Below are positions 13,976 to 27,628 of a stretch of DNA of 39,840 nucleotides, in pieces. Position 1 is the first letter of the stretch. The number at the start of each line of letters is the position of its first letter. The translations under genes were made by a program, and so were the position numbers. The notes below the pieces were generated by a model. The model made no database searches, was not told the DNA's origin, and saw nothing but the letters and a program-made list of their open reading frames with translations. The stretch comes from Deltaproteobacteria bacterium (GTDB taxonomy: Bacteria > Myxococcota_A > UBA796 > UBA9615). The stretch spans positions 1 to 39,840 of the forward strand of contig JAGSHC010000026.1 of assembly GCA_023954745.1 (NCBI GenBank), written 5' to 3'.

Positions 13976-14884
13976 ATGAGCGACGGCCCCCACAAAGACC
14001 TCGCCCCCACCCTGGAGGGCGCGTTCCCCACCGGACTCATCGAGGCGATTCAGGAGTCGACGGGGCTGAGGGGTTCGTTGCTTGTCATCGCAGGGTCTGC
14101 GGCCGATCTCGGCACCCACCAGGTCGTGGGCGACGAGGTCGTCCTGGGGCGAGACCCCAATCAGCTGCTGTTGCGCGACCCGCAGATCTCGCGGCGCCAC
14201 GCGCGCGTCTTCGCCGACACCGCCGTCTTCTTCCTCGAAGACCTGGGCTCCACCAACGGCACGCTCCTCAACGGTGAGCCCGTCGTCGAGCGCAAGCTGC
14301 TCCGCAACGGAGACACGATCCAGTTGGGGCACACCACCATCAAGTTCGCCCTCGTGGACCCCGCCGAGGCCGCCGTGCTCGAACGCATGGCCGCCCTCGC
14401 CGGCACCGACCCGCTGACGGGCCTGATGGCGAAGCACCGGTTCGACGCGATGCTCACCCAGTGCTTCGACGACGCCCAGTCCAAGGACACGCCGCTGTCG
14501 GTGCTCATGATGGACATGGATGGGCTCAAGGCCATCAACACCGAACACGGCCACCCCGTCGGCGCGCACACCATCTCAGAGGTAGGCCGTCTCATCGGTC
14601 GCATCGTGGGCTTGCACGGCGAAGCGTGCCGGTTCGGGGGCGACGAGTTCTCGGCCTTGTTGCCTGGCTCGCCGATCAGCGGAGGACTGCGCATCGCCGA
14701 GCGCATCCGTCAGGCGGTGGAGGAGGCCACCTTCTCCCTCGGCGAGGTCGAAGTGAGCCCCACCATCAGCATCGGAGTGGCGGAGATCTCCCCAGACCGC
14801 TCCTCCGTGCGCGCTCTCGTCATCGCAGCAGACCAGGCGCTCTACCGGGCCAAGGACCAGGGGCGCAACGCCGTCAGCGACTGA
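13976..14884 (+). CDS. FHA domain-GGDEF diguanylate cyclase
   Basis: A 302-residue cytoplasmic protein. Residues about 34-128 form an FHA phosphothreonine-binding domain (VVLGRD, ISRRHARVF, LGSTNGTLLNG). Residues about 140-300 form a GGDEF domain (DPLTGL, MMDMDGLKAIN, FGGDEF at 220-225, TISIGVAE, ADQALYRAKDQGRN), so it should make cyclic di-GMP. The RxxD inhibitory site normally five residues before GGDEF is absent, so product inhibition is probably lacking. FHA control implies activation by a Ser/Thr kinase phosphoprotein, fitting an organism with many eukaryote-like kinases. Confidence 0.92.
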   Translation: MSDGPHKDLAPTLEGAFPTGLIEAIQESTGLRGSLLVIAGSAADLGTHQVVGDEVVLGRDPNQLLLRDPQISRRHARVFADTAVFFLEDLGSTNGTLLNGEPVVERKLLRNGDTIQLGHTTIKFALVDPAEAAVLERMAALAGTDPLTGLMAKHRFDAMLTQCFDDAQSKDTPLSVLMMDMDGLKAINTEHGHPVGAHTISEVGRLIGRIVGLHGEACRFGGDEFSALLPGSPISGGLRIAERIRQAVEEATFSLGEVEVSPTISIGVAEISPDRSSVRALVIAADQALYRAKDQGRNAVSD

Positions 14885-15001: not shown

Positions 15002-15919
15002 ATGCCGTTTTCCTCCGAAGAGGCTGCTGCCGCCTTCGCCACCGTGTCCAGCCCCGACCCCTTCGAGGAGAGCCTCGAGATCGCGGAGGACTTCCTCGCG
15101 GACTCCCTGTCGGGCTCGCGAGGCGCTCCCGAAGCCAGCCGGGGTCTCTCGGCGGAGCGGGTGGTGGTGCGCGGGCACGATGCACCCGAGGATGAGGAGT
15201 TCCTCGAGACAATCATCGGCGGTGACGACCGCCAACGCATCCGAGACACCGAGACCTACCCCTGGCGCATGATCTGCCAGGTCGAGATCACCTGGCCGTC
15301 GGACTCGCGGGGCTTCGTGGGCACCGCATGGCTGGTGGCTCCGCGCACGCTGGTGACCGCGGGACACTGCGTCTACGACCCGCAATACGGTGGGTGGGCC
15401 ACGGAGCTGAAGATTACGCCGGGGCGAGATGGCTCGGAGCGCCCCTTCTCCTCCTTCGTCTCTGCTGCGTACTCGACGACGAACCACTGGTTCCACAACC
15501 AGAGCGAGGACCACGACTTCGCGGCCATTCACCTCGATGAGGACGCCGCGGCCCAGGTGGCCGAGCTCGGGCACTTCTCCGTGGCGGTCCTCCCGGGCCG
15601 CGAGCTCACGGGCCTGAACGTGAACCTCAGCGGGTACCCCGTCGACAAGGGCGGCCGCCAGATGTGGCACGACGCCAAGCGCATCACTGGCCTGACGAAG
15701 AAGCGCGTCTTCTACGACATGGACAGCTTCGGGGGGCAGAGCGGCGCGCCGGTCTTTGCCTGGGAGAACCCGGATGACGCACCCCAGGTCATCGGAATCC
15801 ACGCCTACGGCACCGGGGCTACTCCGCGCCACATGGACATCACCGCCAACAGCGCCCCGCGGATCACGCCGGACGTGCTGGCGGTCCTGCGCGAGTGGAT
15901 CGCCAAGGACACACCCTGA
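15002..15919 (+). CDS. V8-like (chymotrypsin-fold) serine protease
   Basis: A 305-residue protein with no signal peptide. Residues 1-70 are an acidic N-terminal region ending FLETIIGGDDRQRI. The chymotrypsin-fold domain follows with the catalytic triad His122 (VTAGHCVY), Asp172 (EDHDFAAIHL) and Ser247 (SFGGQSGAPVF). This is the glutamyl endopeptidase/V8-like branch often found beside signalling NTPases in multicellular-type bacteria. Lack of an export signal points to action inside the cell or through a special secretion route. It is 61 bases upstream of the giant protease-lipase-oxidase gene and shares its strand, so it is likely part of the same island. Confidence 0.87.
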   Translation: MPFSSEEAAAAFATVSSPDPFEESLEIAEDFLADSLSGSRGAPEASRGLSAERVVVRGHDAPEDEEFLETIIGGDDRQRIRDTETYPWRMICQVEITWPSDSRGFVGTAWLVAPRTLVTAGHCVYDPQYGGWATELKITPGRDGSERPFSSFVSAAYSTTNHWFHNQSEDHDFAAIHLDEDAAAQVAELGHFSVAVLPGRELTGLNVNLSGYPVDKGGRQMWHDAKRITGLTKKRVFYDMDSFGGQSGAPVFAWENPDDAPQVIGIHAYGTGATPRHMDITANSAPRITPDVLAVLREWIAKDTP

Positions 15920-15980
15920 CCGAACCTGAGCGACGCCCGGGGAGATGATGAGCCGCGCAGTGCGCGCGAGGGAGACGAAG

Positions 15981-18900
15981 ATGGGGCCCACCGGCAAGGA
16001 CCGACTCGCAGCGCTGCGCGCGCGCCTTGGGCCCGCGGGCCAGAGCCTCTCCACGGCGGAGCTCCTCGAGTATCTGGGGCTCGCCTCCGCGGGAGAGGTG
16101 AACGAATCCACAGCGGGTGGCAGCGGCGACCCGGATCTCGAGATCAGCGAGTCCCTCGAAGCGGCCACCGGCGACGCTCCCATCCTCGACCGCGTGGCGG
16201 AGGCCTTTGACGGCGGGGCCTTCTCGGACGACTGGGGCGAGGTCGAGGAAGCGATCATCGACGCCGCGACCCGCCCCGCGCGCACGATCGCTGACGGCTC
16301 CTTCGTGGACATGCCACCTGCCTTTGGCTGGGTGAACGACGCGCGCGAGCAGGTCGAGCGGGCCATCGCGGCCAGCGGCCGGGTGGAGCTGCACGGAAGC
16401 AGCGCGCCCTACGGCGGCACCGGCTTCGTCGTCGGCGACGGGCTGGTGCTGACCAACCGCCACGTAGCGAAGCTGTTCGCCAGCGGCTCGGGCCGCAACG
16501 ACATCTTCTTCCGCGCCGGACGCACCTCGGGCTGGGACCCGCGCCGGGAGACGCTGGAGCAGGAGTCCCACGAACTGCAGGTCCGCAAGGTCCTGGCCAT
16601 CCATCCCTATTGGGATGCGGCGCTGCTCCAGGTCGAGGGGTTGCCCCGCGAGATCGAGCCCCTTGCGCTGATGGGGACCGCGCCCGCGAACCTCGAAGGC
16701 CTCGATGTCGTCGTCGTGGGCTACCCCGCCGGGGGCCAGAGCCGAAACTCCAGCGCCGACAAGAAGACCGTCTTCGGCATCACGTTCGACGTGAAGCAGC
16801 TCATGCCGGGACAGGTGACGGGGTTCCAGTGGACGCCCAAGTCGCGCCGGAAGCGGGTCCATGCCCTCGCTCACGACGCCTCCACCCTGGGAGGGAACTC
16901 GGGGTCTGCCGTGTTCGATCCCGTCACGGGACGGGTCGTGGGGCTGCACTTCGCCGGAAAGCAGAAGCTCACCAACTGGGCGGTGCCCGCGTGGGAGCTC
17001 GCCCGCGACATCGCGGTGCGCGACCTCAAGGTGTTCTTCCACAATCCAGGTCCGCCCGATGACCCGCGCGCCGAGGACTGGCTCGCCGCAGACCCCGTGC
17101 CCCAGGAAACCAGGGTCATCCCCCGGGTGCCCCCGCCGGCCGCTCCCGCCCCGGCCGCGACTGCAGGTCCCCTCGGCGCGTTGGAGCAGCAAGGCCGCAG
17201 CCGCTACGGACGGTACGCAGGGCCGTGGCTCGACGCGGTGCGCGCGCTCCAGGCGAGCGGGCAGGAGCTCGCGGAGTCCGCCGGGCAGGGAGACGCGCCT
17301 CCCGACGACCTGGCCTCGGCCATCGAGGCGGTGCGCAACGAGCTGGAGCGCCCCGGCGCAGGTCGGCGAGACCCCTACGCGCCTGAGATCGTGCTGCTGC
17401 CCGGCATCATGGGGACCGCCCTCGGACGACCGTCCGGACTCTTCTCTCGGTTGTGGTTGGCTCCGGGACAGTTCCTCGCCGGCAGCCTGGCTGAGCGGCT
17501 CTCCCTCGCCGCCGACGGCCTCCGAGACAAGGTGGAGCAAGGTGGGATCGTCCCCCTGCAGCCCATCGACGCGCTCTACGGCGTCCCGGCGCTGGCCTGG
17601 TGGGCCCGCGGCTTCCGCGTGCACATGATGGGCTACGACTGGCGAAAGCCCCTGGCCGTCGCGGCCAAGCGTCTCTTTCACCGCCTCGGTGAGCTCGCCA
17701 CGGACCGGCCCCATGTGCGCTTCGTCCTGGTGGGCCACTCCATGGGCGGCCTCGTCGCCTCGGTGTTCGCCCACCAGCACCCCGACGCCTACGCAGACCT
17801 CGTCGAGCGGACCATCACCCTCGGCTCGCCCCTGGGGGGCTCGTTTGCAGTGCCCGAGACGCTCTCGGGTGAGTCCCACCTCATGAGGCGCCTCGCGCGC
17901 GCGGTTCCCACCGACAAGGTGGGGGACTTTCGACGCATGGCGAGCACGTTCCCAGGCCTGCTGGCGATGCTGCCCTCCCCCGAAGTCTTCGCAGACGCCA
18001 CCCATGCTCAAGGCGGCGCCGTCGAGTCGCTCTATCGCCGCGCGACGTGGGAGCCGGAGTTCGCGCCATCGGTCCGGTGGCTCGAAGAGTCCCTCCGCCT
18101 CAAGAAGGTGCTGCGCACAGCGCTCGTGCACGCGGGGCGCCCGGTCACCAATCTCGTGGGCACCCACTTGCCCACCCAGGCGTCCGTCGATCTGCGCGGC
18201 TATCCGACCCGTGGGGAGTGGATGGAGACCGGCGACGGCACGGTGCCTTCTCGCTCGGCCCAGGTCCCCGGCGCGGAAGTCCTCAGCATCCGGGCCGCTC
18301 ACCACCTCATCCCCGTGCACCCGAAAGCCATCGCCGCCGTCGCGCACCTCATCCGCACCGGCCGCTGCGAGCTGAGCGCGCCGACCGACATCGGCGAGCC
18401 CATGGAGGAGTCCGTCGAGACCCGCGAGTCCCTCGCCGGCGACGAGAGCTCCGCCGTGCATCTGCGCTCCAAGGTCGAGCGCGGCGCAGAGCTCGGCCTG
18501 GAAGAGTGGGCCTGGCTCCTCGAAGGGGTCCCCCCCACGATGGCCGCCGGCGCGGCCGAATCCGTGGCCAGACCGGCCACTCCCCCCAGTCCAGACCTGA
18601 GCGTGGAGCTGCTGCGGCGATTGGACTTGCGCCCCAAGACCCCAACGACGCGGCCCGTCTCCACTCCGCCGAAGCGACCCCGGGGGTTCCCCGGAGGGGT
18701 CCTGCTTCGATGGGCTCCGGTCGACGCCGGTGAGCACGCGTGGATCGCCGCCCCGACCTCCGAGGATCAGCTGCTCGACACAGTGAACTGGGCCGCCGGC
18801 AGAGGGTGGCGACTCCGGCCCTGGGACGGCGACGCCACCGGCTCGGCCTTTGGCTGGCCCGACCACGCGGCCCCCGAGCGAATGGCCATGCTCGACCTCA

Positions 18901-21900
18901 GCCATCTCCCCTCGGAGCGGGCTCTGGACACCGCCGCGGGGCAACCGGTGGTCACCGCGTCCACGGGACAATCGGTGGACGAGCTGCTCGGCTGGCTCGA
19001 AGAGCAGGGCGACACGGACGGGTACTCCCTCACGAGCGTGCCCGCGTCGGGGCGTCTCTCGGTAGGCACGGCCATCGCCTACGGCTCCGCAGGCACAGGG
19101 ACGGGCGAAGGCGAGTCCGGCTCCCACGGGACAATGGGCAACCTCGTCGTCCGCTTCCGGGCGGTGGTGAGAGCCCCCGGGAACCCCCGGTACACCGTGC
19201 AGGAGTTCACCCGGGAGCACGTCGACGCCCCGGCGTTCCTCCTGCACCTGGGTCGCGCACTGATCGTCTCGGTGTCGCTTCGGGTGGTGCCGAACTACTG
19301 GCTGGAGGTCCGCAACCTCTACCCTGAAGCCGAAGCGCTCTTCGCCGCCGAGGCAGGGGAGACCTCGCTCTCCTCCCTGCTGGACACCACCGCGCGCGTC
19401 GACGTGCGTTGGTACCCGGGCACGACGCGACCTTGGGTTCGGACGTGGGCCCGCATCGCCGAGCGCGCTCTGGGCCGGACCCGGCGCCCCTACGCGTACC
19501 GCTCGAGCCAGGACGTCACTCCGTGGGCGGAGTCCGCGCTTCGGGACCACGCCGCCCAGGGCACCAGCACGTCCGTCACCGAGAGCCAACTCGACCTGAC
19601 CCGCGCCATGGAGCCCGAGGACCTGGTGCGCCACGGCCTGAGCAAGAACCTCCTCCTTCGAGACGGCCAGGTCACGGTCCACACGGAGCGGCACGGGCTG
19701 GTGGTGCTCTGCCCCCGGTCCGAGGTCCAGGCCGTCGTGCACGCGATCACGGCGCAGTACTCGGCCCAACTGGCCAGCTTCGCCGCCGACCACGGCGCGC
19801 ACCCCATGAACGGCCCCCTCACCCTCGGCGTGACGGGCCTCGACGAGCCGGCGGATCTCGGTGGGTCCGATGCCCGGCCTCCTGCCCTGTCCCCAGTGCG
19901 CCCGATCCCCGACGCCCCCGAGGTGGACACCGCCGTCTGGGTGAGGGCGGACTCCGTGGGGGGGACGCCCTATCAGGACGCCTTCCTCGCCGAGCTCGAG
20001 ACCTTCGCATGGACCACCTTCCCCGGCCGCGTGCGTCCCGACTGGAGCGGACTCTTCGCCGTCGACAGCGACGAGGGACCGTGGGGACACGGCGGTCGAC
20101 TCAACCGGGACATCCTCACCGCGTACCCCCAGAACGACGCTGGCATGGGCCTGCGGCAGGTGGGCCAGGCCTTGGCCGGGTGGGACGAGGACGGCGTCTT
20201 CGCGGCTCCCCTGCATCAGCGGCTCTTTGGCGGAGGCCGCAAGCGCACGGTCTCCCAACTCTTCCTGGGAGACGAGGTGTCCGAGGAGTTCATCGAAGGC
20301 GTCAACCCGAAGGACCAGCTCGCCGCCGACCTCGAGTACCTTCGAGCCGGCCCCACCGAGGGCGAGGACCCCTCGGTACGCATCGCGGGAATGGCCTCCT
20401 GGGCCGAGTCCCTCTCCGACGATGACTACGACGAGGCCGTCGCCGCCCTGCGCCGAGAGGTGGGAGCGCAGGACCCATCCGAAGAGCCCGACGAGACGGA
20501 AGAGGGCATCCACATCGGCGGCGCGGATGTGCGGAACCCCCTCACCGTGGCCCGCGTGCGCAAAGAAGTGCGCGCCCTCGACGACTCCGGCTGCCTCGCC
20601 TGGACCCTCCAGGTCGGTGCAGCGGCTCCTCACGACTTCCTCGCGGACGGAGCGAGCGGACGCAGGACGATGAACGACATCGTGGTGGCCGAGGCCCGCG
20701 CGCGCCGTCGCTTCTCCCGCGTCCAGCCGGCGCCGGGGTCCTGGTACCCCTACATCGGCGCAGATGGCGCGGACCGGCACCTCGAGGAGCCGCCGGACTA
20801 CCAGCACCAGCTGCCCACCAGCCTCAGCGACCTCCTCGCGTTGCTCGTGGACTCCGCCGAGTCCGGTGGCGTGCGGGTCACGGGGGGCTCCCACTCCTCC
20901 AGCGACGTCGCACGACCCGATGCCGGGCGCCCGCGCATCGAGCTGCACCAGCTGCCTGACCGCAGCATCGCCTTGCCAGGCAGGGGCTGGAGCCCCGAAG
21001 ACCGGCACTTCCAGTCGCGAGACACCCTCGCGGTGCGCATTCCGGGCTGGTGGAAGGTGTTCGACGCGGTCCGCACCCTCGACACCATCCACGGCGCGGA
21101 GCCCGGGTACGCGCTCGAGAACCTCGGCTCCTACGACCAGCAGACCCTCGTAGGCGCCATGGCGACGGGCACCCACGGCTCGGGCTCAGCGCTGCGCCCC
21201 ATGGCCGACCAGCTGCTGTCCATGGACATCGCCACGGTGCAGAAGGGCGAGGACGGCGCCCCTCGGGGAACCGTCTTCCGGGTGGAGCGGGCGGACGGCC
21301 CCACCGACAAGGACGCCTTCGAGACCTGGATGCGCGGACGCCCCGCACCTGCGGACTGGCAACTGATCCAAGACGACTCGGTGTTTCAGGCGTGCCAGAT
21401 CGGCGTGGGCTCCCTGGGGGTCATCTTCGCCATCACGGTCAAGGTCGTCCCCCAGTTCCGTCTGCACGAGGTGGCCCGGCGCAAGCTCTTCCAGGACGTC
21501 GGACCCGGGGTCATCGCCGATGCGAGGGAGATCTTCGCGCATGCCGGCGCGGAGCCCCACAAAGAGCCCCGCCTCGACCTGCTGGTGAACCCCTACACAG
21601 GCCACGACGGCAAGCAGGTGTGCCAGAGCACGCGGCGCACCTGGCTCGCCTACGACCCAACGAAGCACGGGAAGTACGCGGGGCGGGAGCAGAAGGACCT
21701 GATCAAGCGCGCGAAGCGCAAGGGCCCGAGCTGGTTCGTGCAAACCACCGCCGCGTTCCGGGCCATCGTGGGAGCCGGCGCGTGTCTCGATGTGGCGCTG
21801 GAGCTGAATCAGGGGCCCAAGGCCGGCTGGGACAGCATCAGCTACCAGGTGCTCAAGCTCGGCCTGGGCAAGTACGTTTCGCCACCGTCTCTGGAGTTCG

Positions 21901-22328
21901 CGTTTCCGGTGGAGCAGACCGAGCGCGCCGTGCAGTCCATGAACGAGCTGGCCGAGGAGGCCCACGCGCGCTCCCCGCGCATCTCGCTCACCTCACCGTT
22001 TGGGGTCCGCTTCGTGCGGAGCAGCAAGGCGTGGCTCGCTCCGGTGTCCGGCTGGAATGGGGACACCTACACGGAGAGCCTCTTCACCATGCTCGAACTG
22101 TCGATGTTCCTCCACGCCCCCGGCGCGGAGTGGGTCTTCGAGCAGGCAGCGCAGCGGCTGTTCGACCTGGGGGGCAGGCCACACTGGGGCCAGCTCAACG
22201 ACCTGGGCCCCAACCAGATGCGCGACCTGTACGGCGACCACGCCGTCGACGAGTTCAAGAAAGCCCGTGCGCTGCTCGACCCCTACGGAGTGTTCGACTC
22301 GCCGTTCACCCGCCGGGTGGGCCTCTAG
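15981..22328 (+). CDS. Giant fusion: trypsin-like protease, LCAT-like lipase, cholesterol-oxidase-like FAD domain and second FAD-linked oxidase
   Basis: A 2115-residue protein (start ATG 15981, AGGGAG six bases upstream; ATGs at 15945/15948 are alternatives). Module 1 (about 110-360): trypsin-like protease with His161 (TNRHVA), Asp212 (YWDAALL), Ser307 (GGNSGSAV). Module 2 (about 465-800): alpha/beta-hydrolase of the lecithin:cholesterol acyltransferase type with LLPGIMGTALG, nucleophile Ser587 (VGHSMGGLV), Asp752 (TGDGTVPS) and His774/775. Module 3 (about 905-1420): FAD-linked oxidase resembling class II cholesterol oxidase, with a substrate-binding half. Module 4 (about 1600-2115): FAD/FMN oxidase with RVTGGSHSSSD and an ALO-like C-terminus. 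No signal peptide or membrane helix is evident. The modules suggest attack on proteins and on membrane lipids or sterols with production of hydrogen peroxide. The frame is intact throughout; function is inferred. Confidence 0.85.
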   Translation: MGPTGKDRLAALRARLGPAGQSLSTAELLEYLGLASAGEVNESTAGGSGDPDLEISESLEAATGDAPILDRVAEAFDGGAFSDDWGEVEEAIIDAATRPARTIADGSFVDMPPAFGWVNDAREQVERAIAASGRVELHGSSAPYGGTGFVVGDGLVLTNRHVAKLFASGSGRNDIFFRAGRTSGWDPRRETLEQESHELQVRKVLAIHPYWDAALLQVEGLPREIEPLALMGTAPANLEGLDVVVVGYPAGGQSRNSSADKKTVFGITFDVKQLMPGQVTGFQWTPKSRRKRVHALAHDASTLGGNSGSAVFDPVTGRVVGLHFAGKQKLTNWAVPAWELARDIAVRDLKVFFHNPGPPDDPRAEDWLAADPVPQETRVIPRVPPPAAPAPAATAGPLGALEQQGRSRYGRYAGPWLDAVRALQASGQELAESAGQGDAPPDDLASAIEAVRNELERPGAGRRDPYAPEIVLLPGIMGTALGRPSGLFSRLWLAPGQFLAGSLAERLSLAADGLRDKVEQGGIVPLQPIDALYGVPALAWWARGFRVHMMGYDWRKPLAVAAKRLFHRLGELATDRPHVRFVLVGHSMGGLVASVFAHQHPDAYADLVERTITLGSPLGGSFAVPETLSGESHLMRRLARAVPTDKVGDFRRMASTFPGLLAMLPSPEVFADATHAQGGAVESLYRRATWEPEFAPSVRWLEESLRLKKVLRTALVHAGRPVTNLVGTHLPTQASVDLRGYPTRGEWMETGDGTVPSRSAQVPGAEVLSIRAAHHLIPVHPKAIAAVAHLIRTGRCELSAPTDIGEPMEESVETRESLAGDESSAVHLRSKVERGAELGLEEWAWLLEGVPPTMAAGAAESVARPATPPSPDLSVELLRRLDLRPKTPTTRPVSTPPKRPRGFPGGVLLRWAPVDAGEHAWIAAPTSEDQLLDTVNWAAGRGWRLRPWDGDATGSAFGWPDHAAPERMAMLDLSHLPSERALDTAAGQPVVTASTGQSVDELLGWLEEQGDTDGYSLTSVPASGRLSVGTAIAYGSAGTGTGEGESGSHGTMGNLVVRFRAVVRAPGNPRYTVQEFTREHVDAPAFLLHLGRALIVSVSLRVVPNYWLEVRNLYPEAEALFAAEAGETSLSSLLDTTARVDVRWYPGTTRPWVRTWARIAERALGRTRRPYAYRSSQDVTPWAESALRDHAAQGTSTSVTESQLDLTRAMEPEDLVRHGLSKNLLLRDGQVTVHTERHGLVVLCPRSEVQAVVHAITAQYSAQLASFAADHGAHPMNGPLTLGVTGLDEPADLGGSDARPPALSPVRPIPDAPEVDTAVWVRADSVGGTPYQDAFLAELETFAWTTFPGRVRPDWSGLFAVDSDEGPWGHGGRLNRDILTAYPQNDAGMGLRQVGQALAGWDEDGVFAAPLHQRLFGGGRKRTVSQLFLGDEVSEEFIEGVNPKDQLAADLEYLRAGPTEGEDPSVRIAGMASWAESLSDDDYDEAVAALRREVGAQDPSEEPDETEEGIHIGGADVRNPLTVARVRKEVRALDDSGCLAWTLQVGAAAPHDFLADGASGRRTMNDIVVAEARARRRFSRVQPAPGSWYPYIGADGADRHLEEPPDYQHQLPTSLSDLLALLVDSAESGGVRVTGGSHSSSDVARPDAGRPRIELHQLPDRSIALPGRGWSPEDRHFQSRDTLAVRIPGWWKVFDAVRTLDTIHGAEPGYALENLGSYDQQTLVGAMATGTHGSGSALRPMADQLLSMDIATVQKGEDGAPRGTVFRVERADGPTDKDAFETWMRGRPAPADWQLIQDDSVFQACQIGVGSLGVIFAITVKVVPQFRLHEVARRKLFQDVGPGVIADAREIFAHAGAEPHKEPRLDLLVNPYTGHDGKQVCQSTRRTWLAYDPTKHGKYAGREQKDLIKRAKRKGPSWFVQTTAAFRAIVGAGACLDVALELNQGPKAGWDSISYQVLKLGLGKYVSPPSLEFAFPVEQTERAVQSMNELAEEAHARSPRISLTSPFGVRFVRSSKAWLAPVSGWNGDTYTESLFTMLELSMFLHAPGAEWVFEQAAQRLFDLGGRPHWGQLNDLGPNQMRDLYGDHAVDEFKKARALLDPYGVFDSPFTRRVGL

Positions 22329-22381
22329 CCCACCTCCTCGCTCACCGCCTCACGTCCTTCCCATCTCTTTCTGGAGCCCCC

Positions 22382-23341
22382 ATGAGCAACGACAAGAACG
22401 CCCTCGCCAGCCTCAAGGCCGCCTTTCCCGGGGACGCACCGTCCCTACGTCTGAACACCGTCTCGGGCCTGCGGGGCCCCCTCGCGACCAAGAGCGAGGT
22501 GCCCATCGACTCCACCGACGTCTTCGTCGCTGACTTCGTGGCCCACAAGCCCCTCAAGCGCGCGCACAAGGACGTCATCGGGTACTACCGCGTCCAGGCG
22601 AAGCACGCGCGCCACATTCCCGTGTCCCACGAGTTCATCGGGGTGAATCAGTGGGTGCGGCTGCCGCTGCCCGCGACCGCCAAGCGCTGGACCCGCACGA
22701 CCCGTATCGGAGTGGTCCAGGCCGCCGACCACCTTCTCCGCAACGTCAAAGAGGCCGCACACAAGTACGACAAGCGCCTCGACTTCGCCATCAAGCGGGT
22801 CGACGTCATCACGCCCGCTCGCTTCCACGGGGCGCGGTTCGCGGCCGCGGCGCTCTATCTGCTGTTCGACAGCGAGACGGCCGTGGAGGCGCGTGGGTAC
22901 GTGGCCGAGGGTGGGGGCGCGTTCGGGCGTCCCCAGGCGCTGTATCTCGGGCCCCAGATGGGTGAGACCGCCGGCGACTCCTGCCGCTTCGTCTTCACCG
23001 CCATGGCCGACGTGGACCACGCGTACGACTTCGTGATGAACGTCGACGGCACCCATCCCACGAAGATGGTGCTCAAGGCGTTCATGGGCCCCGAGCGCAA
23101 GCAGCAGTACCTGACCAACACCATCACCTTCCACCCGGTGACGTCCGAATCCCTGGACGAGACGGGGGTCTACACCCCGCAGAGCATGCAGCGGGTGGCC
23201 GCCAACCGGGTGGTGCAGATCGGCGACGCCATCGTCGCAGCGAAGAAGCCTGGCTGGATCGAACACGAGGACGACCTCGTGGCCACCAGGGTCTTCTCGA
23301 AGCTGTTTCCGGCGAAGCCCACCTGGACGGACACGCCGTAG
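22382..23341 (+). CDS. Protein of unknown family, partner of the giant fusion protein
   Basis: A 319-residue protein starting ATG 22382, 53 bases after the giant gene, same strand. It has no signal peptide or membrane helix. It is rich in basic and aromatic residues in the middle (FVAHKPLKRAHKD, RLPLPATAKRWTR) and His-rich near 90-100 (KHARHIPVSHEF). I do not recognise it; no catalytic motif is clear. Position suggests a substrate partner, chaperone or immunity protein for the upstream giant enzyme. It ends 30 bases from the convergent STAND gene. Confidence 0.7.
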   Translation: MSNDKNALASLKAAFPGDAPSLRLNTVSGLRGPLATKSEVPIDSTDVFVADFVAHKPLKRAHKDVIGYYRVQAKHARHIPVSHEFIGVNQWVRLPLPATAKRWTRTTRIGVVQAADHLLRNVKEAAHKYDKRLDFAIKRVDVITPARFHGARFAAAALYLLFDSETAVEARGYVAEGGGAFGRPQALYLGPQMGETAGDSCRFVFTAMADVDHAYDFVMNVDGTHPTKMVLKAFMGPERKQQYLTNTITFHPVTSESLDETGVYTPQSMQRVAANRVVQIGDAIVAAKKPGWIEHEDDLVATRVFSKLFPAKPTWTDTP

Positions 23342-23371: not shown

Positions 23372-26300
23372 CTACTCCACGAGGAGCGGGCTCGCGTAGA
23401 TGGCCTGGAGTTCCTCCTTGAACGGCTCCACCAGTGGGTCCGGGTCCGCCAGCACCGCGTCCACGAGCTCGCCGTACCTCCCCAGACGGGCCGCGGACTC
23501 GAGGAGTCGGCGCGCGTTCTCCCCATCCCCATGCCCCTTCGTCGTGGGGCCCGGTGACCACTGCACCTGGGCGCGCCCCGAGAGGTCCAGGAGCTGGCCC
23601 ATCTTGGGGTAGGCGTCCTGCATGATCTCGAGAACGCGGCGGGTGTCCTTGTCCCGGAAGTCGAGGAGCACTGGGCCGGTGGCTGCCAGGCGGGTGCTCT
23701 CCGGTCCCAGCGGGCCAGTGCCGGTGGTGCGCGGACCGCGCGCCGAGAAGCCGCCGACGAAGACGGCGCGCAGCCCCTCTGCCACATCGGGCGGAAAGCG
23801 ACGGTCTTGGGTCCGGTCGAGGAACGAGAGAAGAAGTCTCTCCACCGAGGTGGCAGCGAGGCGGCTCCCCCAGTCTCGGGAGAGCCCCCGCTGCACCGAG
23901 GCCTCGTCGGACAAGGCACCGTCGAGCTCCTCATCCCAACGCATCAGAGCAGCCCCCAGCGCCTGGGTGGACTCCTCAGCCGGGAAGCCCGCGAGGTTCA
24001 GCCCGTTCTCGAGCAGGGCCGGGACCACGCGCCCAAAGGCGGCCGCGAGTCCACGGGCGAGGCTCGGCTCCGCCTGAGCCCCGTTCCCTCCCACTTGCGC
24101 CAGCAGCTCCCGGACGCGCTGGAGTTCGTCGGCGAGGGCCTCGGCATCCCAGAGCTGGCCAACCTCTGCAATGCGCAACCGAAGGAGCAGCAAGTCCCCC
24201 GCTTCCAGGGGCCGTCCGGCGAGGCGGGGTTCCGACGCCACGGAGTCCAGCACCGTCACGGCGTCCAGGTGCTTGCCCGCCCGAGCCAGCAGATCTCCTG
24301 CTCGGCGCGCTGCCAGACGCAGCCTCAGCGCGCTGCCCGACGTGCGCGCTGCATCCACTGCGCGCCGGGCAGCGTCCGCCGCGGCCTCGGAGGCGCCGGA
24401 GGCGTCCAGAGCCTGGGCTTCCAACTCGTGCAGGCGCGACGCCGGCGTCCTCTCACCCGGCGGGACCTCGGCGAGGGCGGTGAGAGCGTCGCCCCAGGCG
24501 CCACCCTCCAGGAAGCGCGCCGCTCGGTCTGCGAGGGCGTCCTCGGCGTCGATGCGTCGCGCCTCCTCAGCGACCCCAGCGCTGACGACGACCTCATCCG
24601 CCGTGCGGAGCGCGTCGAGAAGCGCCTGGGCGCGCTCGGGGAAGTCCGACGCGAAGGGCTCCAGCCGCCGCGCAGAGTCCCTGGTCACCCCCTTGAGGAT
24701 GGAGGGGATGGGCTCGTGGGCCAGCGCCAGCCGGTGGTACAGGCCCACATCCGACTCCGCGGGCACTTGCTCGAGGGCCAGGGAGTGGACCCGTGCGAGC
24801 CACGCCGCCTTGTCCGGGCGAAGCTGCGCCGCGGCGTAGGCGTACTGCCGCAGATCCTCCTGGTACTCCACGCGCTCTTCGGGAAGCGCCGAGGCGAGCG
24901 CGCCGTGCTCGGAGCCGTATCGCTGCTCGCCCCCATAGCTGCGGACGACAGCGCGCTCCTGGGCCAGGGCGTCGAAGACGAGGCGCGCGGGTGGCGGGTT
25001 GGCGAGTTCGATGGCCGGGTAGAGCACGGACTCGATGATCGTCGGGGTCACGTACATGCCCGCGAGCCCCGCGATGGCGACGGCCCGCACCGCCGTGGCC
25101 AGCTCGGGAGGATGAATCTCCAGGTGGTCCAGGATGCGACCGAAGAGGAACCCTCGGACGTACTCGTCCTTGACCCCCTGCACCGCGGCCTCGCGGGCTG
25201 ACTCCTCGACCGCGAGGACCCCTTCCTTGGCGAGCACCTTGGAGGCGAGACGCAGAGTGAACGGGCTGGTGCCCACCTGACTGAGGATCGCGGTGACCAG
25301 CCCCTGGTCGAGCATCGCAGCCGCTTCGGGGTTCCTGTACTGAACCATGCGGCGCAGCAGGCCGCGCGCGTGGGCCTCCTCGAGCCCTGCGATGCGGTGT
25401 TGGCGCTGGTGTGCCAGGTCCCTGGCCTCCGACGTCCCGCAGCGGGCGAACACTCCATCCTCGGACGCGCGGCCGCTGAGCACGAGCTTGAGGGGGAGAG
25501 CGAAGGAGAGCTCGTAGAACAGGTCGAGCAGATCGGCGGTGGCGGCGTCACCAGCCCTCTGCACCCGCTCCCAGGTGTCGACCACGAGCAGGAGCGGACG
25601 CCCCTCCCCCGCGTCGCGCAGGACCTTCCCCAGCAGCGACACCCCGCCGCGGACGCCGCCCTTGACCCGCTGCTCCTCCCCCGGCTCGAGCAGCGGCCGA
25701 AGCACGCGCGCGTGCCGCGGAAACTGCGCCGCCACCTGGATCGCGAGGGCCCGGAGCACCAGCTCGGGGCGGGCGCGCCAGAGCTCGGGACCATCGAGGT
25801 CGAGCAGGGCCCACGGCTGGTCGGGCTCGGTCGTGTACATCAGGTGCAGGAACGCGCTGACCACCGTCGACTTGCCCATGCCCCCGATGCCCACCAACTG
25901 GAGCGGAGGGTCCGACTCGAGGGCTCCCCCCGCCCGGGGGGGCGCGGCCAGGTAGTCGCTGAGGGCAAACAACTGGGGGTCACGCCCCACCACGTCCACC
26001 TCGCCCTCGAGATTGCGAGGGAGGAACTCGAGCAGCGGCCGGACACGCGCCAGCACCCGCAGGCGACCACGAAGCTGCTCCTCCTCGGGGCCCAACTCGA
26101 GTCGGCGCTTCCGCAGTTGTCCTTGCACGGCCTCGAACCAGGAACGAACCCGAAGCATCTCGAGGGCCTGGGACTCGGTCAGTTCGTCAGGGTCGCAGGG
26201 CCGCTCGAGGATGAGGTTGTCGAGGGCCCACTGCAGCGGATCCGCGTCCCGGGGCGCCACCGGGACCTTCTTGCGCGCCCGCCGAAGGGCGACGTTTCCG

Positions 26301-26557
26301 TTGCGACGGACCAAGCGCGTGAGGATGCGGACGCGCTCCCGACGTCGCAGGCGGTGCGCGGCGTCGGGGTCGGCGTCGGGGCCGATGAGGACGTCGAGCA
26401 GCCCTGGGGGATGGGGCTTCGGCAGGTCACGGACTCGGAAGGTGCCGCTCACCGCCGCCACCTCGGCAGCCCGGCTCTGCATCACCGGACGCCGGACAGT
26501 GCGACGCTGGGCGCGGGCCTCTCGCCAGCCCGCGGGATCCTTGGGGCGCGCTCTCAT
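23372..26557 (-). CDS. STAND-type NTPase with C-terminal EAD1-like adaptor domain
   Basis: A 1061-residue protein. A basic, helical N-terminus (1-200) leads into a NACHT/AP-ATPase-like NTPase: VDVVGRD, Walker A VGIGGMGKSTV (Lys229), Walker B LLLVVDTWE (Asp327), a sensor-like LKLVLSGR and winged-helix region. Residues about 600-880 are Ala-rich helical repeats resembling TPR (alternating Ala/Leu/Arg), the likely sensor. The last 100 residues hold a VQW motif, then GRYGELVDAVL and a DPDP turn, matching in register the adaptor domain of the EAD-protease at 27714. Start ATG overlaps the stop of the EAD-ATPase (ATGA), so the two are coupled. Such proteins act as NLR-like intracellular sensors that oligomerise. 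Confidence 0.88.
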   Translation of the reverse strand: MRARPKDPAGWREARAQRRTVRRPVMQSRAAEVAAVSGTFRVRDLPKPHPPGLLDVLIGPDADPDAAHRLRRRERVRILTRLVRRNGNVALRRARKKVPVAPRDADPLQWALDNLILERPCDPDELTESQALEMLRVRSWFEAVQGQLRKRRLELGPEEEQLRGRLRVLARVRPLLEFLPRNLEGEVDVVGRDPQLFALSDYLAAPPRAGGALESDPPLQLVGIGGMGKSTVVSAFLHLMYTTEPDQPWALLDLDGPELWRARPELVLRALAIQVAAQFPRHARVLRPLLEPGEEQRVKGGVRGGVSLLGKVLRDAGEGRPLLLVVDTWERVQRAGDAATADLLDLFYELSFALPLKLVLSGRASEDGVFARCGTSEARDLAHQRQHRIAGLEEAHARGLLRRMVQYRNPEAAAMLDQGLVTAILSQVGTSPFTLRLASKVLAKEGVLAVEESAREAAVQGVKDEYVRGFLFGRILDHLEIHPPELATAVRAVAIAGLAGMYVTPTIIESVLYPAIELANPPPARLVFDALAQERAVVRSYGGEQRYGSEHGALASALPEERVEYQEDLRQYAYAAAQLRPDKAAWLARVHSLALEQVPAESDVGLYHRLALAHEPIPSILKGVTRDSARRLEPFASDFPERAQALLDALRTADEVVVSAGVAEEARRIDAEDALADRAARFLEGGAWGDALTALAEVPPGERTPASRLHELEAQALDASGASEAAADAARRAVDAARTSGSALRLRLAARRAGDLLARAGKHLDAVTVLDSVASEPRLAGRPLEAGDLLLLRLRIAEVGQLWDAEALADELQRVRELLAQVGGNGAQAEPSLARGLAAAFGRVVPALLENGLNLAGFPAEESTQALGAALMRWDEELDGALSDEASVQRGLSRDWGSRLAATSVERLLLSFLDRTQDRRFPPDVAEGLRAVFVGGFSARGPRTTGTGPLGPESTRLAATGPVLLDFRDKDTRRVLEIMQDAYPKMGQLLDLSGRAQVQWSPGPTTKGHGDGENARRLLESAARLGRYGELVDAVLADPDPLVEPFKEELQAIYASPLLVE

Positions 26558-27612
26558 GCGAAGAACCCGTTCTCCTCGAGCAGCACGAACAGCTCCTCGT
26601 GCGGTTGCGCGTCCGGCGGGGGAACCATGCAGGCCGCGGGATCGGGAAAGAGCGCGTCCAGCCGGGCGCGCAACGCCGTGTCGTCCTGGACCTCACAGCC
26701 CTTCTCGGCCAGGGCGCCCCGCAGCCACTCTTCCGCTCGATCGCGATGCACACCCTCCGGCCGGTCCATCGCCGCGACGAAGCGCAGGTCGGGAGGAGCA
26801 TCCGCCGGGGAGCCCGCGAGCACCAGACGCACGCGAATGCAGTCGTCGCGCACGAGGGTGTCGATGAGCGCAGCGAGGAGCATCCCCATGGAGGGGGTGA
26901 GCACGTCGTCGGCGCTGTCGATGAAGAACCAGGTCAGGGGCCCCTCGCCCTTCGCCCCGAGCTTGAGCCGGGAGCGCAGGGTGTTGAGACCTGCCTTCAG
27001 CGTGGTCTCCGTGCCAGAGAGGTCCACCCGCTCGAGGCCGAGAGCATCGGTGATGAAGTCGCACACCTGCATGTGCCCGTCTACGCCTTCGTAGTCCTCC
27101 AGATCGATGCTGTGCTCGACGTCGACCACTTCGCACAGATAGTTCTCACTCCAACTCTTGCCCGTCTCCGGGTCCCCGAGGAGCACGAGCACCGGCTTGC
27201 CTCCGGGGGCATCCATGGCGCGGACTGCGTCCCGGTAGGCCCGGCGATCCACGAAGGGACGGCCACCGGCGAGGAAGTGGGGGAGGTCGTGAGGGCTCGG
27301 CGCGCCCGTGGGTGGCGCGGCGCTCGCGGCGGCTCCCCAGCGCGACCGGACATGGGCGACGATCGAGGAGCCGGTTGGCTTCTGTTGCTCGACGCGCGCA
27401 AGAAACTGAAGGAACACCGCTTCGCCTTGCGCCACGATCTTGCTGGCAACCTCCACACAGATGCTGTGAGCGGGCTGCTCCCAGAACACCTGGTTGGCAC
27501 AGCCGAACTCGTCCGACAGGACCTTCAGAGCGTGGGTCGGCACAAAGCCACCGAGCACGACGAACAGCCGCTCCAGTGCCTCGGCGAGCTGTGTCTCGGC
27601 CTCCGTCGGCAT
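26554..27612 (-). CDS. EAD1-like adaptor fused to P-loop ATPase
   Basis: A 352-residue protein (ATG 27612, with a G-rich AGGGGGAG site just upstream; a GTG three bases earlier is alternative). Residues 1-80 are an EAD1-like helical adaptor domain, with QVFWEQP and an AQG turn 16 residues after the QP. Residues 115-350 form a P-loop ATPase: GDPETGKS Walker A (146-153), LTWFFIDSADD Walker B (Asp232), then a sensor segment VRLVLAGSP. The domain closely resembles the one at the start of the divergent protease. It precedes, and overlaps by four bases, the STAND gene, forming a two-gene operon. Confidence 0.82.
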   Translation of the reverse strand: MPTEAETQLAEALERLFVVLGGFVPTHALKVLSDEFGCANQVFWEQPAHSICVEVASKIVAQGEAVFLQFLARVEQQKPTGSSIVAHVRSRWGAAASAAPPTGAPSPHDLPHFLAGGRPFVDRRAYRDAVRAMDAPGGKPVLVLLGDPETGKSWSENYLCEVVDVEHSIDLEDYEGVDGHMQVCDFITDALGLERVDLSGTETTLKAGLNTLRSRLKLGAKGEGPLTWFFIDSADDVLTPSMGMLLAALIDTLVRDDCIRVRLVLAGSPADAPPDLRFVAAMDRPEGVHRDRAEEWLRGALAEKGCEVQDDTALRARLDALFPDPAACMVPPPDAQPHEELFVLLEENGFFA

Positions 27613-27628
27613 CACTCCCCCTGCCGCC

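Follow-up and report, generated by a model that had tools for sequence, protein, structure and literature searches.

The closest described relatives of the locus reported here are the NucA-trypsin systems of the System 3 kind (Kaur et al. 2020, PMC7159879), in which, according to passages of that paper, a trypsin-like protease lies N-terminal to an endonuclease effector (NucA) in one chain, a trypsin paralogue bears the domain EAD1 in a subset of systems, and a STAND-like nucleoside triphosphatase (NTPase) is encoded nearby in certain operons. Alpha/beta-hydrolase domains are described there as partners or effectors, and excerpts of another study (PMC8195603) name trypsin, caspase and membrane-lipid-hydrolysing alpha/beta-hydrolase domains as partners of adaptor domains of this type. 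In the quoted parts of the description of Caulobacter LypABC (PMC13236601), LypC likewise consists of an N-terminal trypsin and a C-terminal effector, in that case an endonuclease; Ser296 of its protease is required for lysis while the endonuclease residues are dispensable, and phospholipases substitute for gasdermins in some CARD-NLR variants. Antiphage systems with proenzyme nucleases activated by trypsin are also known from extracts of a further report (PMC12799240), where the Hachiman, AVAST, Lamassu and canu nuclease pairs have a partner trypsin-like or caspase-like protease that gates the effector, a metallo-beta-lactamase (MBL)-fold nuclease encoded by its own gene. Here we describe a locus on contig JAGSHC010000026.1 of a Deltaproteobacteria bacterium (assembly GCA_023954745.1), in which a single open reading frame (ORF) encodes a trypsin-like protease, an LCAT-like lipase and two folds of the vanillyl-alcohol oxidase (VAO) type. 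The contig is identical to the 39,840-base stretch that was analysed, called the window below, and belongs to a genome of 7.13 Mb in 481 contigs.

On balance, we slightly favour the view that this locus is an intracellular conflict system of the NucA-trypsin/CARD-NLR-like kind, gated by proteolysis and resembling abortive infection, in which the effector carries an LCAT-like lipase and two VAO-type flavoprotein folds in place of the endonuclease. The protein is probably a protease-controlled membrane-damaging effector and not a sterol-oxidising enzyme. The assignment to a conflict system is supported by sequence comparisons, namely the clade to which the trypsin module belongs and a trio of neighbouring genes common with one other genome. 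These comparisons support the preliminary description of this DNA where it regarded a controlled effector as plausible on account of the adjoining NTPase genes.

All four modules that had been proposed for the polypeptide were found by Pfam: Trypsin_2 at residues 158-334 (74.5 bits), LCAT at 559-677 (33 bits, cut-off 21), FAD_binding_4 in two stretches (39.9 bits, the best at 934-1074), Chol_subst-bind at 1130-1428 (140 bits) and ALO at 1976-2125 (56.5 bits). The catalytic triads of the protease and of the lipase are complete, as had been stated (Table 1). The predicted lack of a signal peptide agrees with the highest 19-residue hydropathy of the N-terminal 60 residues, which was only 0.68 and thus not signal-peptide-like, as judged by hydropathy and not by a signal-peptide or transmembrane predictor; the peak for the whole protein (1.86, at residue 1817) falls within the fold of module 4. 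An alternative start, an in-frame ATG at 15981, lies 12 codons downstream, has a GGAG that is better spaced by eye and would yield a 2115-residue protein. Residue numbers refer to the 2127-residue form, and 12 is to be subtracted for the shorter one.

The ORF is genuine: no stop codon breaks its frame over 6.4 kb, and every module and linker shows coding bias. The uninterrupted frame around it spans 2132 codons, and the G+C content at third codon positions was 0.86-0.91 in all modules and linkers, which is coding-like. We considered the possibility that an assembly or sequencing error had joined two or three genes that are in reality separate (one for the protease and lipase, one sterol-oxidase-like and one ALO-like), as might happen in so fragmented a genome and as the lack of any relative with the full architecture would allow. 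Yet the linkers (at about 17.07-17.35, 18.38-18.69 and 20.24-20.71 kb) are in frame and share the coding bias, the frame stays open from end to end, and module 3 is degenerate, unlike its 80 stand-alone relatives. Such a fusion is therefore very unlikely.

No described protein was known to have this arrangement according to the preliminary description, and nothing similar was present in the collections searched, of which the genome samples are partial. Among 58 related genomes (up to 7 candidates scored per genome), the full architecture was absent, and matches besides the protein's own full-length one concerned module 4 or the lipase only; the same-genus genome G001 gave no match to the protein, as expected for an accessory system. 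The search of 72,556 plasmids gave 52 matching records, none with a single place covering 80% of the query. A single-protein query of the GTDB genome contigs, a weak test based on six exact peptides, gave 8 pattern matches and no relative, and BLAST of the ORFs at the loci of module 3 relatives (the best 80 of 156) detected no similarity to the other three modules (trypsin, lipase and ALO) in any of the 80. No trypsin-lipase-oxidase protein was found in openly licensed PMC papers with a few queries aimed at fusions and pseudo-enzymes. The main text of PMC7159879, to which the search of that paper extended and not to its supplements, contains no word starting with 'lipase', 'oxidase', 'FAD', 'oxidoreductase' or 'flavin', and 'phospholipase' occurs once, in a reference.

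Module 1 was searched for in 188 genomes of the phylum, 10 of which, its own included, contained any match. At E<1e-30, it was found in four other genomes. Three of these encode fusions of trypsin with Endonuclease_NS (L153, L154 and L155, respectively 45%, 42% and 40% identical to module 1), and the fourth a stand-alone protease (L156, 37%). In a tree of 15 rows, module 1 grouped with the NucA-linked trypsins of L153 and L154 (support 97/94), inside an eight-row clade (100/97) made up of module 1, four NucA-fused trypsins, two fused to phospholipase D (PLD) and one stand-alone trypsin. Among the 72,556 plasmids, 31 records matched at E<=1e-10, many of them near-identical rhizobial entries; their annotation was NucA in 11, PLD in 3, S8 peptidase in 13 and protease only in 4. 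Relatives of module 1 are accompanied by EAD1-ATPase or caspase genes. The PADLOC matches 'nacht' and 'RT-Protease' both fall in the trypsin region and were set aside. Of note, two genes devoid of a Pfam match, L154:5566-6633 (355 residues) and L153:6111-7022 (303 residues), each adjoin a trypsin-NucA gene and may be an unrecognised partner.

Delivered effectors commonly include lipases and proteases that act as toxins, and the protein might accordingly be delivered into rival cells, in predation or as an interbacterial toxin, instead of acting in its own cell. We consider this highly improbable, given the N-terminus that does not resemble a signal peptide, the EAD1-ATPase or caspase genes that adjoin relatives of the trypsin module, and the window itself, among whose ORFs no secretion or delivery genes were recognised by eye, no dedicated search having been made.

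The second line of evidence for an intracellular conflict system comes from the genes downstream. The large NTPase (23372) was searched for in 188 genomes of the phylum, with up to 4 candidates scored per genome, and had a relative in only one other genome, G196 (32% identity, E 2e-15), which also bears AAA_16. The contig of G196 shows the row NTPase (-), EAD1-AAA (-), EAD1-trypsin (+), trypsin-NucA (-). Thus, the order and orientation of the first three genes are identical to those of 23372, 26554 and 27690 in the window, and the trio adjoins a trypsin-NucA gene. In a direct comparison of the two loci, the small ATPases matched at E 4e-5. The EAD1 of 27690 is borderline, with 24.3 bits (cut-off 24.2) in a six-frame search of this protein and its neighbours, and its relative L169 is 36% identical to it over the EAD1 region. 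A possible EAD1 on the large NTPase was rejected.

Several observations weigh against assigning the locus to a conflict system. Window protein 27690 matched the EAD1-trypsin of G196 (E 1e-13) within the trypsin part only, and the two were not paired in the tree. When 26554 alone was used to search the 188 genomes, G196 included, no relative was found, the one in G196 being revealed only by direct comparison. By hmmscan, the EAD1 of 27690 scored 20.8 bits, below the cut-off of 24.2, and that of L169 scored 16.0. The N-terminus of 26554 aligned with EAD1 by hhalign with a probability of 38% (E 3e-4), a Pfam scan of 26554 gave no EAD1 match, and BLAST of 27690 against 26554 returned a 26-residue match only (E 0.024). 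The effector has no EAD1 at its own N-terminus, so that no physical link between it and the trio is demonstrated. Its gene set (15002-23341, + strand) and the NTPase pair (- strand) are convergent and do not form one operon. No four-module relative was found to show that the architecture is maintained. Finally, PF01223, the NucA domain that is a defining part of System 3, was matched by neither the ORF nor the five neighbouring proteins of the window; the locus is therefore not filed as a member of System 3, only as a variant of that kind.

The convergence of the two gene sets, four enzyme-like modules in line and the intact FAD (flavin adenine dinucleotide) motifs of module 4 would also suit a gene unrelated to its NTPase and EAD1-like neighbours, encoding a cytosolic multi-enzyme that degrades lipid or sterol with its modules working in series, as was in part the proposal of the preliminary description. 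This is unlikely, as NucA or PLD is fused to 6 of the 7 other trypsins of the clade, module 3 has lost its FAD-linking and catalytic residues (see below), the protein has no match in the same-genus genome, and module 3 was found in 1 of 71 genomes of the class, its own.

The lipase module matched human LCAT and group XV phospholipase A2, and its alignment to LCAT spans the Ser and Asp regions through to the end of the domain. The triad residues stand in GHSMG, GDGTV and H contexts, and an alignment of 8 lipase modules shows them in every one. Fusions of an LCAT-like lipase to CHAT occur in L023, L058 and L059 and one to trypsin in L022, and in L028 such a lipase is encoded beside an NB-ARC/CHAT NTPase; a lipase with a protease-type domain is thus a recurrent design. 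The CHAT fusions resemble the present protein in joining both functions in one chain and differ from it by having CHAT in place of trypsin and by giving no Pfam match to an oxidase module. Two of them are large (L058:3797-9412 and L059:5094-8207) and look like the CHAT counterpart of the trypsin-lipase design; L058 additionally carries DUF7379 and a sub-threshold match to TPR-S.

According to the preliminary description, the lipase would be followed by a cholesterol-oxidase-like activity generating hydrogen peroxide, the third and fourth modules both being FAD-linked oxidases. As far as the fold is concerned, this description of the two modules stands. Module 3 matched cholesterol oxidase 3js8 at 194 bits, and its AlphaFold2 model (33-row alignment; mean predicted local distance difference test score (pLDDT) 82.9, predicted template modelling score (pTM) 0.86) had as its top Foldseek matches 3js8 (template modelling score (TM) 0.81/0.85) and the cholesterol oxidase BCO2 (1i19; TM 0.82/0.86), at 22-29% identity in structural alignment. 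It differs from these enzymes by the lack of the FAD-linking His and of the catalytic Glu and Arg. In BCO2, His121 carries the linked FAD, and catalysis depends critically on Glu475 and Arg477, as stated in parts of PMC7588053. We compared module 3 with the best 80 of 156 relatives from genome contigs, the BCO2 numbering being anchored on a printed alignment. Without exception, the 80 relatives retain His121, the His of GHGT, Glu475, Arg477 and the Lys of WSK; all five are replaced in module 3, by F969 (A964 in another alignment), A1049, T1293, G1295 and G1369, respectively. Sterol oxidation producing hydrogen peroxide is rejected on account of these losses: FAD-binding residues are gone from module 3 and present in module 4.

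The losses are not limited to the active site, since module 3 retained only 45 of 74 near-invariant columns (each identical in at least 77 of the 80 relatives), i.e. a fraction of 0.61, whereas the lowest leave-one-out value among the relatives was 0.79. By class, 18 of 22 Gly/Trp, 11 of 23 DENQHKR and 6 of 14 FYLIVMA columns were kept. Ends aside, pLDDT was below 50 at residues 964-968 and 972-975, which correspond to the expected FAD loop, and at 1243-1245. This loop bears an insertion that has no counterpart in the relatives, so that its low pLDDT is in itself no proof of lost FAD binding.

We also considered that module 3 might be alive, binding FAD non-covalently and oxidising some other substrate in a rearranged active site. 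A cholesterol-oxidase mutant unable to form the histidyl-FAD bond stays active with a 35-fold lower turnover, according to extracts of PMC2890692, which speaks against calling module 3 dead, as does the quality of its modelled fold; the missing His is not decisive taken singly, and the case for a pseudo-oxidase rests on the five losses jointly. With the four further residues lost, the poorly modelled FAD loop (which the insertion may explain) and a conservation below that of any relative, an active module 3 appears quite unlikely. Judged by its residues, module 3 is a pseudo-oxidase, with a sterol-oxidase fold predicted to be catalytically dead. PF09129 was found in 2 of 377 genomes of the phylum, its own and one with an ordinary 659-residue oxidase.

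Module 4 resembles alditol oxidase in having FAD_binding_4 and ALO and in keeping the FAD motifs GxxHS (with the FAD His) and TGTHGSG, as GGSHSSSD and ATGTHGSG. It differs from it by G-x-R (GVR) for E-x-R and HWGQ for HWGK; we take E-x-R and HWGK to be catalytic residues in ALO and alditol oxidase. The last motif was HWGQ in six of 14 aligned relatives (L002, a paralogue from the same genome, and L003, L004, L006, L008 and L019), HWGL in three, HWGK in four and neither in one, and the FAD His was missing in 3 of the 14. The predicted model (pLDDT 76.1, pTM 0.81), from which the first 48 residues are missing, had alditol oxidase 2vft as its nearest structure (TM 0.59/0.77). Module 4 is thus probably an FAD protein whose substrate residues are changed as in several uncharacterised relatives, and on account of this change we draw no conclusion as to sterol or lipid oxidation. 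Its own genome encodes a 707-residue paralogue (L061:7549-9672, contig C239), which is extended by a long stretch at the N-terminus and likewise has HWGQ.

By analogy with LypC, the trypsin-activated nucleases and System 3, we propose a protease-gated lipase. The STAND-like NTPase 23372 and the EAD1-like ATPase 26554 would sense an insult, and contact between EAD1 domains would recruit the EAD1-like trypsin 27690. A proteolytic step, involving the partner protease 15002 and the effector's own trypsin module, would then unleash the lipase, which would attack phospholipids of the host membrane. Module 3, catalytically dead, may bind a hydrophobic ligand or dock on the membrane, and module 4 would be a probable FAD protein within the effector. 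That the trio cooperates with the effector, in which order activation proceeds, what the lipase attacks, what modules 3 and 4 do and that the cell is killed are points that we infer. A more specific version, in which a cell-suicide effector combines the protease-gated lipase with a domesticated pseudo-oxidase serving as lipid sensor or membrane anchor and with a live covalent-flavin oxidase, is conceivable though doubtful. The locus offers a concrete candidate in which a lipase is substituted for a nuclease, and the presence, inside a likely effector, of a cholesterol-oxidase fold stripped of catalysis makes a pseudo-enzyme role in bacterial cell death directly testable.

Table 1. Features of the locus, with positions in the window and residues of the 2127-residue form.
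Feature	Position	Strand	Remarks
Stand-alone trypsin-fold protease, 305 aa	15002..15919	+	25 bp upstream of the ORF
Whole ORF	15945..22328	+	2127 aa, ATG start; comprises modules 1 to 4 in this order
Module 1, trypsin-like protease	16365..17069	+	aa 141-375; triad H173/D224/S319; clusters with NucA-fused trypsins
Module 2, LCAT-like alpha/beta-hydrolase lipase	17355..18380	+	aa 471-812; triad S599/D764/H786
Module 3, VAO-type cholesterol-oxidase fold, predicted pseudo-oxidase	18690..20234	+	aa 916-1430; without FAD His, Glu475, Arg477
Module 4, ALO/alditol-oxidase-like flavoprotein	20715..22325	+	aa 1591-2127; GGSHSSSD and ATGTHGSG kept; HWGQ for HWGK
Gene, 319 aa, sub-threshold DUF1365 match	22382..23341	+	53 bp downstream of the ORF
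Large STAND-like NTPase, 1061 aa, candidate sensor	23372..26557	-	AAA_16
Small AAA ATPase	26554..27615	-	AAA_22 sub-threshold; EAD1-like N-terminus, suggestive only
Protease, 492 aa	27690..29168	+	Trypsin_2 and borderline EAD1

The large NTPase scored 35.2 bits for AAA_16 (cut-off 32.6) and had no match in the PDB; we infer that it belongs to the STAND class. NTPases of System 3 bear a trypsin as described, whereas this one has no Pfam match to trypsin. With the protease 27690, it resembles LypB, an NLR-like ATPase, and the protease LypA in kind, a likeness by description in parts of PMC13236601 and not by sequence; LypABC differs in that the window has its protease and small ATPase as separate genes.

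The partner protease 15002 was 31% identical (E 6e-34) to a protease encoded beside the trypsin-PLD gene of Mesorhizobium plasmid pOM4, in a gene row that also holds a caspase and a hydrolase. Besides pOM4, a second serine-protease gene was adjacent in only 1 of 4 further plasmid neighbourhoods of 15002 relatives, which also counts against the proposed system; with three of the four lacking it, the pairing is only suggestive. A likeness of 15002 to a 355-residue gene of G196 was rejected on comparison.

Downstream of the ORF, the gene at 22382-23341 may be a third operon member; it had no relative in the plasmids or the PDB. Upstream of the protease genes, NCBIfam identified a diguanylate cyclase (GGDEF) whose N-terminus is FHA-like (13976-14884, + strand). 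Rfam gave 0 matches within the window. Protease 27690 had a relative in class genome G064 (42% identity over residues 12-476). Contig C693 of that genome, which weakly matches the EAD1 region of 27690, also carries a MoxR-like ATPase gene recognised by eye (L175), and this class may include a ternary system of the MoxR-vWA type.

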